NCBI GenBank assembly: GCA_023251075.1
Contig: JAHEZM010000013.1
Location: 1-64,000, forward strand
DNA: 64,000 nucleotides
Source: Flavobacteriales bacterium
GTDB lineage: Bacteria; Bacteroidota; Bacteroidia; Flavobacteriales_C; GCA-002722245
Direction: 5' to 3'
Below, one piece after another: positions 1-2,997 of the stretch; position 1 is the first letter of the stretch; each line of letters opens with the position of its first letter. The notes below the pieces were generated by a model that saw only the letters and a list, made by a program, of their open reading frames with translations, was not told the DNA's origin and made no database searches. A program made the translations under genes and the position numbers.

Positions 1-895
1 TGATAAATACCAATATGTTAAGTAGTGACCAAACGATCAATCCTTTCTTTACACGATTATTCCAAAGAGGATCCCATTTTTTGGAATTTAAAATCGATTT
101 AGTGAAAAGCATGTAGAATGTAAAAGCTACGTTGCCCAAAAGTAAAACAAGTATTTCATGGTATTTAAAAGAGGAGAAAAGTCGAAGTTCAAGTAGTCCG
201 GTTTGGGCCAAAACAAATAAAATAATAACAAAGTTATTGGCTATGTATAATAAGTAAAATTTTTTCCTCACAATGAAGTAGAGAGCAAGGTTGTAAATGG
301 TCATGATGATAATGGCGCCCAGAAAAAAATGAAGAAAAACGGAGGTGTTGTTTTTTAATTCTGCAAAAGCTTGATCGGAGTATATGGTAAAGGGCAGTGG
401 AGCGTATTGTTGGGTTGATTTTTTTTCTTTTGTGCAAAAAACATAAAATTCATTTTCTCCTTTGCCAAGTATTAGTGGTAAATAGGAATCGGTTCCTAGA
501 ATGATGTTTTTTTGACTGTGATCGAGGTTAGTTCCTGAGAAAAGGCACTTTATTTTATGATTGGAATCGGGATAACAAACTTTTAAATAATCGAAGAAAC
601 TGGTGGCGAGCAGGAAATCTTGTTTTGATGATTCATTTCTCACGGAAATTTTGAGCCATAAACTTTGAGCTTCTTTAGAAATAGAGTCCTTAGAAAAGGG
701 ATGAAATTTTGATTTTTGTAAACTACTGGCAGATAAAACTGAATCTTCTACGGATACTTTGAGCATCTGTATTTGTTGTGTTGGGATTTCCTCATTGCTT
801 TTATCGTCTAGCACAAAAGCATTTGCGGCAGCACTAAAAGTGAAAATGAGAAAAAGGCCAACAATCAAGTTGATTGTCTTCAGTTTTTGTTGCAT
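1..895 (-). CDS. 7TMR-DISM-type receptor, N-terminal part (cut by left edge)
   Basis: The reading frame starts at an ATG at 893-895 and stays open to the left edge, so only the first 298 residues are present. It begins with a signal peptide (MQQKLKTINLIVGLFLIFTF...). Next comes a soluble region of about 150 residues that looks like the periplasmic 7TMR-DISMED2 fold, and then several hydrophobic helices from about residue 190 with the typical start FLGAIIIMTIYNLALYF. In this family the seven-helix domain is normally followed by a cytoplasmic histidine kinase, GGDEF or helix-turn-helix output domain, which lies outside the window. The ligand is unknown. The next gene to the right is on the same strand and ends 9 bp upstream of this start, so the two may be co-transcribed. 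Confidence 0.8.
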   Translation of the reverse strand, partial: MQQKLKTINLIVGLFLIFTFSAAANAFVLDDKSNEEIPTQQIQMLKVSVEDSVLSASSLQKSKFHPFSKDSISKEAQSLWLKISVRNESSKQDFLLATSFFDYLKVCYPDSNHKIKCLFSGTNLDHSQKNIILGTDSYLPLILGKGENEFYVFCTKEKKSTQQYAPLPFTIYSDQAFAELKNNTSVFLHFFLGAIIIMTIYNLALYFIVRKKFYLLYIANNFVIILFVLAQTGLLELRLFSSFKYHEILVLLLGNVAFTFYMLFTKSILNSKKWDPLWNNRVKKGLIVWSLLNILVFI

Positions 896-904
896 TGGGA
901 AACC

Positions 905-1576
905 CTATACGATCTTTTTTCGAAAAAGATTCAATAAATAAATATAGAAGCAATCTAATACTAATACTATGATTCCCAGCCACTGAACAAAATGATTTTC
1001 GGGGTAGAAATAAAAAAGTGAAACAGTAATTAAGCCGGTACCCAGCATTTTCGACCAGGCCACAATTTTAGAGAAGTATTGCGCTCCGGTTTGAATCATT
1101 ACAATAGGGTACATGATGGAAATAATAATATTTAAAAGATAACCTGAGTTGGCTCCAATAGAGGTATCGAAGCCATCTTTCACAAAGTAGTAATTGAGAA
1201 CCAACCAACCTGCTAACGAAACCAAACAAATTACTTTAAAGTTGTTTTTGATTTCAGGCATTTTGATATGATTTGCGCCGTATTTCAATACATAGTAAAA
1301 GATAAAGCAATCTAAAAAAAATGCCGCTTGATATTGTAGTGCAAAGGCAATTCCTGTATTGGGATGATATACAAAGGCCCAAACAAATTCCCAGGCAATA
1401 TTTCCTGCTGCGATGAAAAAGGGCATTTCCACAAATTTCTTTTTAATCATTGTATAAACTATAACAGCGTAAGCTATCACCCAAAAGGCGCAACCAAGTC
1501 CGTTAAACCACAAACCGGTAACATCAAAATTTTTGGTGTTTACCCATACTTCCGGATAGTTTGTAAATGCTTGCAT
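905..1576 (-). CDS. Seven-helix membrane protein resembling Pyr4/PaxB-type terpene cyclases
   Basis: This 223-residue protein is almost entirely membrane helices, with about seven predicted. I see the motif GNIAWEFVWAF with Glu63 at the end of the second helix, and an Asp at position 208 in the last helix (VLVLDCFYIYLL). Integral-membrane terpene cyclases of the fungal Pyr4/PaxB family are about 240 residues with seven helices. As I recall, they depend on a Glu at position 63 and an Asp near 218, which protonate and fold epoxidised meroterpenoids. The size, topology and placement of the acidic residues fit, but this is a by-eye assignment. The gene begins 4 bp after the MpaB-like oxygenase gene, so both are probably made from one transcript. 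Alternatively it is an uncharacterised membrane protein with no cyclase activity. Confidence 0.5.
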   Translation of the reverse strand: MQAFTNYPEVWVNTKNFDVTGLWFNGLGCAFWVIAYAVIVYTMIKKKFVEMPFFIAAGNIAWEFVWAFVYHPNTGIAFALQYQAAFFLDCFIFYYVLKYGANHIKMPEIKNNFKVICLVSLAGWLVLNYYFVKDGFDTSIGANSGYLLNIIISIMYPIVMIQTGAQYFSKIVAWSKMLGTGLITVSLFYFYPENHFVQWLGIIVLVLDCFYIYLLNLFRKKIV

Positions 1577-1580
1577 ATGG

Positions 1581-2762
1581 TTATTTTAATTTCCAGTTTT
1601 CTTGTAAGGAAGGAGGAATGTTAAATTCCACATTTGTTGTTTTTAAATAGATGGCGACCATTCCTTTCATGATTTTTATATTAAGCCATTTCACAATGCG
1701 GGCAAAAAACCATGATTTGCTTTCAAGATTACTTACCGCATCAAAGGCTTTTTCCATAAACCAGGTAATCATGCGACGTTTAAAGGTGGGTTTAGGATTT
1801 ATTCCTATAAGAGCACAAAAATCAATTTTAGCCGCTGCGCTCACATCTCTTGTAAAACGTTGAATGAAGTATTCCGGCATATCATCCAAAAAGCGGAAGG
1901 GTAAAATGATTTTCCCGAAATCCACTAAACTTGCAGTTAATGCTTTAGCTTCGTCTGATTCGTGTTGATTTCTGGTAAGTATGGCCAAACCAAGATTCCA
2001 TCCGTCTTCGTGATTTTTAGGGTAAAGTTCGGGATCTACTCCAATAAAATGTCCTACAATCAACCAGCAGTGTAAGTAAGCATCTTTTTCTTCTTGTGTA
2101 GTTTCTACGCCCAGTAAATCTAATCCTTGTGTAACCAGTGGTCCGAAAGCCATTAAGGTTCCGGCCATTTCTTCCTGATTGATAGGAATACCATAGGTTT
2201 GGGTATCCCAACCATTTCTGTTGATGTGTGGATGGAGAAGATAATAGCGAATAGCAGCATGCATTAATCTCACTTTTTTCACTGTCACAATTCCCTTTCC
2301 TTCGGGAGTTAATCCGCCTGGAGCCATCACATTAATAACCATTTGTGATGTTTCCATCAGCCTTCTAACAATTTTACTAGTATTGTGTCCTTCTTCTCGC
2401 AAACGCCCGGTAGAATACAAAACCTTGGCTCCATTTTTTGAAGAATAACAAAGTGGAAGCGATCGAAAATTCAGAAGAAAAGCGATTTCCGGTCCGAATT
2501 TCGCAAACATATTTTGTGCGATTGCGATTTTCTTTTGATCGGCCCAGGAAGGGAGATTCATTTCATTATTGAAATAGGCTTTTACTTCAGGTAGTACGCT
2601 ATTGTTTTTAAGAATATCATCATTGTTGGTTAATTGAGAAAAGAGTTTTCTTATTTCATCGATTCCGTGTGATTCAATGATTTGGGTTACAAGTTGATCA
2701 GCACTTTGATCGGTTTTATGGCTCATCTCCTGAAGAAATTCAGCCGTCCATGTATTCGTCAT
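1581..2762 (-). CDS. MpaB / rubber-oxygenase family protein (DUF2236-like)
   Basis: This 393-residue soluble protein matches the family of ER-bound oxygenase MpaB and latex-clearing protein, which are heme enzymes that cleave carbon-carbon double bonds of prenyl chains. The segment KIVRRLMETSQ followed by VRLMHAAIRYYL places Arg134, Thr138 and His168 with spacings of 4 and 30. I recall the same spacing for the Arg164, Thr168 and axial heme ligand His198 of the Streptomyces rubber oxygenase. No signal peptide is visible, so it is probably cytoplasmic. The substrate is unknown. It is the first gene of a minus-strand pair with the Pyr4-like membrane protein and is divergent from rpsO. The family assignment is fairly secure; the reaction is inferred. 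Confidence 0.75.
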   Translation of the reverse strand: MTNTWTAEFLQEMSHKTDQSADQLVTQIIESHGIDEIRKLFSQLTNNDDILKNNSVLPEVKAYFNNEMNLPSWADQKKIAIAQNMFAKFGPEIAFLLNFRSLPLCYSSKNGAKVLYSTGRLREEGHNTSKIVRRLMETSQMVINVMAPGGLTPEGKGIVTVKKVRLMHAAIRYYLLHPHINRNGWDTQTYGIPINQEEMAGTLMAFGPLVTQGLDLLGVETTQEEKDAYLHCWLIVGHFIGVDPELYPKNHEDGWNLGLAILTRNQHESDEAKALTASLVDFGKIILPFRFLDDMPEYFIQRFTRDVSAAAKIDFCALIGINPKPTFKRRMITWFMEKAFDAVSNLESKSWFFARIVKWLNIKIMKGMVAIYLKTTNVEFNIPPSLQENWKLK

Positions 2763-2942
2763 TTAAGTTCAGTTTTTTGAGGTTGAACGAAAATAAAAAA
2801 AATTATGAGGAATCAACACCTAAACAGATCTTTCATTACACTGAATATATGAAACCCTTATTCTTGTTATGTTTGTGCAGGTTTATTCAATTAGAAGGGT
2901 ATTTGACTATTGTGATTTTATATAAAAAGCCGCGGTAAGTTG

Positions 2943-2972
2943 TTGGAAAATAAAAACTTTTGTATATCTTTG
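2943..2972 (+). promoter_or_regulatory. Promoter of rpsO
   Basis: TTG at 2943-2945 and TATCTTTG at 2965-2972 are separated by 19 bp, matching the Bacteroidota sigma consensus TTG-N19-TAnnTTTG. The following TCCTCCG and T-run closely resemble the start of the tRNA-Glu transcript at 55321. Confidence 0.8.
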
Positions 2973-2997
2973 TCCTCCGTTTTTAAAATTGAATGCG

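Follow-up and report, generated by a model that had tools for sequence, protein, structure and literature searches.

What brings a gene for a terpene-cyclase-like membrane protein and a gene for a heme-dependent oxygenase together at the beginning of the window (by which we mean the whole stretch of 64,000 nucleotides that was analysed), and what do their products do there? A preliminary description of this DNA had noted two adjacent, co-oriented genes 4 bp apart, from families known in fungi for producing drug-like molecules, and had suggested from them an undescribed modification of an isoprenoid or a quinone side chain. The arrangement of the two genes holds as described. The first gene of the operon, at 1581..2762 on the minus strand, encodes an MpaB/Lcp-family protein of 393 aa (PF09995, DUF2236), and the second, at 905..1576 on the same strand, a Pyr4-like seven-TM protein of 223 aa; the MpaB-like gene is the upstream one, and the gap between the two co-directional genes is 4 bases. 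While the pair was thus confirmed, a third co-directional gene (2..895, minus strand) had been missed. It begins 9 bases 3' of the Pyr4-like gene and encodes a 7TMR-DISM receptor (7TMR-DISM_7TM, 49.9 bits with Pfam), of which the window holds only the 5' part, 298 aa, the gene being truncated by the contig end (the window begins at base 1 of contig C21). The 3' part forms the start of another contig of the same genome (G000:C30:5-1489), and the two contig ends overlap by ~203 near-identical bases with a few mismatches (window 1-203 versus L142:1-203, on C30), the receptor gene being split between both. The remainder on C30 is 71% identical to the intact protein of a sister species and carries the end of the 7TMR-DISM domain and a SpoIIE/PP2C phosphatase domain (61.8 bits).

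The neighbourhood of the pair in related genomes had been set beforehand as a test, and the pair is kept in same-genus and sister-genus genomes. The complete operon of MpaB, Pyr4 and 7TMR-DISM-SpoIIE genes occurs in three genomes of the same genus, the last gene being intact in two of the loci (L010 and L014, 730 aa) and spread over two ORFs in the third (L012), and in a sister-genus genome the MpaB/Pyr4 pair has a 7TMR-DISM histidine kinase with a receiver domain upstream. The window genome has one copy of each of the MpaB-like and Pyr4-like families. The intergenic region 2763..2988, defined from the gene layout as lying between the start of the operon and a divergent ribosomal-protein-S15-like ORF, presumably holds the operon promoter; a simple promoter scan gave no site in it, with fewer matches than in shuffled sequences. 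NCBIfam has no name for any of the three operon genes, and comparison with PLSDB gave no match, so there is no sign of plasmid carriage. A defence system was considered and rejected: the PADLOC matches fell only on generic kinase and cyclase domains of giant transducers of the kind described below, and none on MpaB or Pyr4.

The product of 1581-2762 matches PF09995 (MPAB_Lcp_cat) at 67.6 bits, above the Pfam cut-off of 23. Arg134, Thr138 and His168, which had been described as spaced as in rubber oxygenase, align with Arg164, Thr168 and His198 of Lcp, and the same alignment pairs R165 and R172 with R195 and R202 of Lcp; among 50 MpaB-like relatives R134, R165, R172 and H168 are conserved in 50/50 and T138 in 44/50. 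The active-site residues of DUF2236 proteins include the proximal heme ligand His198 together with Arg164 and Thr168 (PMC5522427). Judged from the alignment, H168 is the predicted proximal heme ligand of the window protein, and R134, T138, R165 and R172 would be the other matching active-site residues. The distal heme ligand of Lcp, Lys167, which is a subfamily feature, corresponds to E137 here; most relatives have Glu at this position, and Lys occurs in 1/50. The AlphaFold model (pLDDT 88.8) overlays on Lcp with Z 30.6 over 333 residues and an rmsd of 3.2, and in the fold ranking Lcp is followed by t-anethole oxygenase (Z 20.4) and then by globins (Z 8-9). The earlier label ‘heme oxygenase-like’ was right as to an oxygenase family, and is better worded as an oxygenase of the Lcp/MpaB type that depends on heme and has a globin-like core.

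For the smaller protein, lack of profile homology to Pyr4-type cyclases had been named as the finding that would count against the assignment; it scores 63.4 bits against PF25129 (Pyr4-TMTC), the cut-off being 27. Its AlphaFold model is compact, with seven TM helices as had been proposed (pLDDT 95.3, pTM 0.89), and three acidic residues, E63 in TM2, D89 in TM3 and D208 in TM7, are each kept in 87/88 Pyr4-like proteins, and also in the Pyr4-kinase fusions described below; two outgroup Pyr4-like proteins are without the TM2 Glu. The Glu in TM2 and the Asp in TM7 are the acidic cyclase residues of the Pyr4 literature. With this conservation, the Pyr4-like protein may or may not still protonate and cyclise its ligand. 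In structural comparison with VIA-align the model is closest to the KDEL receptor (Z 13.6), cystinosin (12.3) and SWEET (12.1), all 16 top rows being of that fold and the next rows reaching at most 6.7, and Foldseek ranked the KDEL receptor/SWEET fold first with an E value of only 0.046. The likeness of the model to this PQ-loop fold, which has a 3+1+3 helix arrangement and whose receptor and transporter members are known relatives (PMC11109136), is suggestive only, because helical bundles can reach such Z scores by chance. Opsins are absent among the fold matches listed for the model, which by itself does not exclude an opsin-like fold. An internal duplication, considered because the LDCF motifs at D89 and at D208 resemble each other, was dropped, as at the sequence level the hhalign score was no better than that of column-shuffled controls. 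Among the relatives, one separate subfamily (L048-L052, family code f60, by inference probably from green sulfur bacteria) stands alone, with neither MpaB nor signalling genes, and two of its members are without the TM2 glutamate. Five loci (L086, L093, L097, L108, L111) from Acidobacteriota, Gemmatimonadota, Leptospirales and Saprospirales have tandem pairs of Pyr4-like genes, possibly encoding heterodimers, beside one MpaB gene and a multidomain transducer; one of the two copies at L086 is without E63 and D89.

With both families assigned, the company that the two genes keep becomes the more informative question. A query of genome contigs with a single protein returned no relatives; an alignment of 12 Pyr4-like proteins returned 80 loci with named hosts, and adding five further loci and the window gives the 86 loci considered here. 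Gene labels came from iterated profiles built for the purpose, for which Pfam-verified domains served as seeds. The hosts, many of them metagenome assemblies, belong, going by the taxonomic ranks given with the record titles, to about nine phyla (Bacteroidota, Ignavibacteriota, Acidobacteriota, Gemmatimonadota, Spirochaetota, Planctomycetota, Calditrichota, Thermodesulfobacteriota and Myxococcota). A signalling gene adjoins the block of enzyme and Pyr4 genes in 67/79 loci by script, and in 72/81 assessable loci after correction for kinases that a frameshift or the ORF calling had split (L053, L058, L075) and for two loci that the script had skipped (L116, L131); of 151 blocks of the same size taken five or more genes away in these loci, 11 touch a signalling gene (~7%). 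An MpaB-like gene stands at position -1 of Pyr4 in 56% of the loci and almost nowhere else, and an output domain at +1 in 68%, against mostly 0-18% from the fourth gene outwards. The median gap is 4 bases from enzyme to Pyr4 and -4 bases from Pyr4 to transducer. The signalling linkage is well supported. Nine assessable loci are without an adjacent transducer. Six loci from Bacteroidota metagenome assemblies (L096, L098, L103, L109, L113, L126) have Pyr4 with no transducer directly adjacent, three of them with a flavoenzyme.

The type of output linked to Pyr4 varies. Verification with Pfam gave four kinds: HisKA/HisKA_2-HATPase kinases, SpoIIE phosphatases, class III cyclases, and giant proteins of the Ser/Thr kinase-AAA-GAF type that end in a cyclase or a phosphatase; judged by a simple count of hydropathy, the giant proteins are soluble. 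Since the loci are not independent observations, the Pyr4 tree is a better guide than the locus counts. A quick IQ-TREE phylogeny requires a minimum of 11 switches of output and 3 of the enzyme partner, as would be expected if an input module can be joined to exchangeable outputs. Receiver proteins and a receiver-cyclase fusion come after several of the kinases. This fusion of a receiver with a class III cyclase, ~348 aa long and located downstream of the kinase (L062:16763-17812, L066:11434-12480, L119:11462-12502), recurs in loci of both the MpaB type and the flavoenzyme type, which suggests a cyclic-nucleotide output. At two loci from two assemblies (L107 and L118) a single ORF combines Pyr4-TMTC, HisKA and HATPase_c domains, verified with Pfam, the Pyr4 membrane domain being N-terminal to HisKA-HATPase, whereas in the window the partner is the separate 7TMR-DISM-SpoIIE protein. 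The L118 assembly, and by its contig names that of L107 as well, has a second, kinase-less Pyr4 gene on another contig; at L130 this second gene comes after MpaB.

Many of the transducers are also related on their membrane side. An N-terminal membrane domain of ~180 aa is common to 42 transducers of three output types, namely 33 kinase genes (two of them as split ORFs), five SpoIIE phosphatases and four cyclases; all 42 lie within 200 bases of Pyr4, and there is no other match to the domain in these loci. It is not exclusive to Pyr4 loci, weaker MASE-like relatives occurring away from Pyr4 in the phylum sample, where the two best scores fall at Pyr4 loci, as scored by a profile that had been trained on such loci. 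Its resemblance to the membrane sensor domains MASE7 and MASE11 is weak (7/37 and 5/37 members, best E 2.5e-7). Two genomes (G328 and G336) carry seven and eight copies, respectively, of the MASE-like transducer domain, far above the other sampled genomes.

The enzyme partner, in turn, comes in two kinds. The co-occurrence of MpaB-like and Pyr4-like genes, first noticed in the window, extends to 53 of the 86 Pyr4 loci; 20 loci have a flavoenzyme instead, 13 have neither and none has both. Where MpaB is missing, the upstream gene usually encodes a flavoprotein of 556-666 aa; in NCBIfam it comes closest to the profiles of HpnE, zeta-carotene desaturase and phytoene desaturase, none of which it matches above cut-off. 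Both MpaB and the flavoenzyme come from families with isoprenoid-acting members, and it is because two such enzyme types alternate that we argue for a prenyl compound as the input. Local production of the ligand is not universal, since three near-complete genomes (G118, G328 and G336) have Pyr4 and a transducer with no detectable MpaB or flavoenzyme. Conversely, most MpaB genes in the phylum occur without Pyr4. At one locus (L179:1557-8332, minus strand) an MpaB-like gene adjoins a gene for a kinase-AAA-GAF-cyclase protein with no Pyr4 between them; therefore MpaB may couple to outputs alone. At another, a 1692-aa ORF (L176:3087-8165, plus strand) contains caspase (Peptidase_C14), GDSL lipase, MPAB_Lcp and DUF5995 domains and is directly followed by a 7TMR-DISM histidine kinase (L176:8178-10292, plus strand), with no Pyr4 gene seen there.

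We propose, with a probability of roughly 0.55, that the pair and its transducer constitute an isoprenoid-linked, three-part membrane sensory module, of which the pair is the upstream half and in which the terpene-cyclase-like protein probably senses an isoprenoid-type molecule at the membrane and does not belong to a drug-making pathway. The Pyr4-like protein is placed at the membrane input because of its tight and repeated linkage to transducers, their exchangeable outputs, the membrane domain that these transducers have in common, and the direct fusions. The evidence is genetic and structural; the isoprenoid ligand, a direct contact between the proteins, the order of the steps and any remaining catalysis by Pyr4 we infer. 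Let us suppose that, in a first step, the MpaB/Lcp-type heme oxygenase, or elsewhere the phytoene-desaturase/HpnE-like flavoenzyme, oxidises the prenyl chain of a lipid-soluble isoprenoid, for which the menaquinone side chain, a polyprenol or carotenoid-like compounds would be candidates. The Pyr4-like seven-TM protein would then bind the product, possibly cyclise it by means of Glu63 and Asp208, and shift its conformation. The co-encoded transducer would read this shift, in the window through the 7TMR-DISM-SpoIIE phosphatase and elsewhere through a histidine kinase, a nucleotide cyclase or a kinase-AAA-GAF protein. Several observations weigh against a sensor: the presumed catalytic acids are so strictly conserved that Pyr4 could be a real cyclase in a pathway that is merely regulated, and to this are added the genomes with neither enzyme, the loci without a transducer, the Pyr4-less MpaB genes, and the occurrence of MASE-like domains elsewhere.

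As the main rival, MpaB or the flavoenzyme, together with Pyr4, might make a terpenoid or a modified quinone under local control, with the neighbouring kinase, phosphatase or cyclase only regulating the pathway or responding to its product. Both families are enzymes where they have been characterised, their catalytic residues are conserved here, and bacterial Pyr4-like cyclases do make meroterpenoids (PMC13307353). Yet the nearby prenyltransferase genes that the preliminary description had proposed to survey did not appear: a phmmer search with three UbiA seeds found no match in the 86 loci, and the three UbiA genes of the window genome are on other contigs (C36, C11, C20). A meroterpenoid cluster of the fungal type, which would bring together a prenyltransferase, an epoxidase or oxygenase and a cyclase, is accordingly not supported by a search directed at UbiA: oxygenase- and cyclase-family genes are present, but in place of a UbiA gene there are signalling genes. 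Pyr4 and transducer also persist in the genomes that have neither enzyme, and the transducers, often swapped and twice fused directly to Pyr4, include cyclases and PP2C phosphatases, which are not simple transcription regulators. The fusions, the varied outputs and the missing prenyltransferase are less well explained by a biosynthetic pair than by a sensor, and we regard such a pair as unlikely, though as the explanation to be taken most seriously after the sensory module. Of the modification suggested at the outset, an isoprenoid substrate is still the best guess, strengthened by the flavoenzyme partner, while the biosynthetic pathway that it implied is not supported, because UbiA is not found nearby and signal transduction is conserved next to the pair, including the two fusions.

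It is a good deal less probable that the MpaB-like protein itself, whose core is globin-like, uses its heme to sense O2 or redox state and relays this through Pyr4 to the transducer with no terpenoid chemistry involved. The Lcp fold does resemble globin-coupled sensors (PMC5522427), globins come after Lcp in the fold search, the alternative flavoenzyme is redox-active as well, and the exchange of the distal Lys167 for Glu in most members possibly leaves the site open to O2. However, the full Lcp active-site set (the three arginines and, largely, T138) is conserved beyond the needs of heme binding, the second-best fold match is an alkene-cleaving oxygenase, and the protein that replaces MpaB is a desaturase-like flavoenzyme and not another gas sensor. 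We consider it very improbable that Pyr4 is a SWEET-like carrier or exporter of the partner enzyme's isoprenoid, with the transducer monitoring transport: its best fold relatives would fit, but the conserved acids match the cyclase family, kinase fusion is more typical of receptors, and no conserved transport genes lie nearby in the loci read.

Returning to the sensory module, we think that a sizeable Pyr4-family clade in about nine phyla is probably a sensory system. More tentatively, this may be a widespread bacterial system unrelated to opsins, in which a seven-TM receptor of a terpene-cyclase family responds to an isoprenoid ligand, produced locally by a heme oxygenase or desaturase dedicated to it and perhaps cyclised during signalling, and drives kinase, phosphatase or cyclase outputs. 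So far the Pyr4 family has been regarded as one of biosynthetic enzymes, to be mined for drug-like terpenoids, and members away from terpenoid genes have been filtered out; a survey of bacterial Pyr4-like cyclases kept 264 of 1107, the remainder being without terpenoid genes nearby (PMC13307353), and the discarded sequences may include the signalling-linked clade. Within the open-access literature, subscription papers and preprints being outside the scope of the search, we found no paper that joins Pyr4 or DUF2236 to signal transduction. If the proposal is true, bacteria read an internal or external isoprenoid (the state of a quinone, a membrane lipid or a signal) via a receptor that has an enzyme either as its ancestor or as its descendant. 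It would point to a function to seek in many DUF2236 genes and serve as a warning for genome mining, and culturable Algoriphagus, Dyadobacter, Spirosoma and Hymenobacter offer systems in which it can be tested.

Lastly, we compare the module with systems already known. With the Pyr4-like cyclases (PF25129; Pyr4, XiaH, TylF, GroF, ZigF) the window protein shares the profile, the seven TM helices and the conserved presumed catalytic acids, but the known cyclases belong to terpenoid biosynthetic clusters, whereas the clade here has signalling genes for neighbours and includes kinase fusions. With the MpaB/Lcp/DUF2236 oxygenases its partner shares the profile, the fold and the active-site residues, t-anethole oxygenase being a structural relative; it differs from Lcp in its partners, Pyr4 and a transducer, in having mostly Glu in place of Lys167 among its relatives, and in its setting, a rubber-degradation context not being seen. 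In sensory rhodopsin systems the genes for a seven-TM receptor and for its separate transducer lie side by side, in some cases along with one for a carotene-cleaving enzyme. The likeness to them would be one of logic, a seven-TM receptor gene beside a membrane transducer of variable output and an enzyme that possibly oxidises an isoprenoid; in contrast to sensory rhodopsin, the Pyr4-like protein is without opsin homology, and the KDEL receptor and SWEET, not opsins, are among its top fold rows. A further parallel is with transceptors, for which the KDEL receptor with SWEET and the S-components with 5TMR sensor kinases have been discussed (PMC11109136). The searched text of that paper mentions no Pyr4-family input domain (neither ‘terpene’ nor ‘PQ-loop’ occurs in it), and the principle that it describes, a transporter- or enzyme-like membrane fold that gives a receptor or histidine kinase its input domain, is the one that we propose here.
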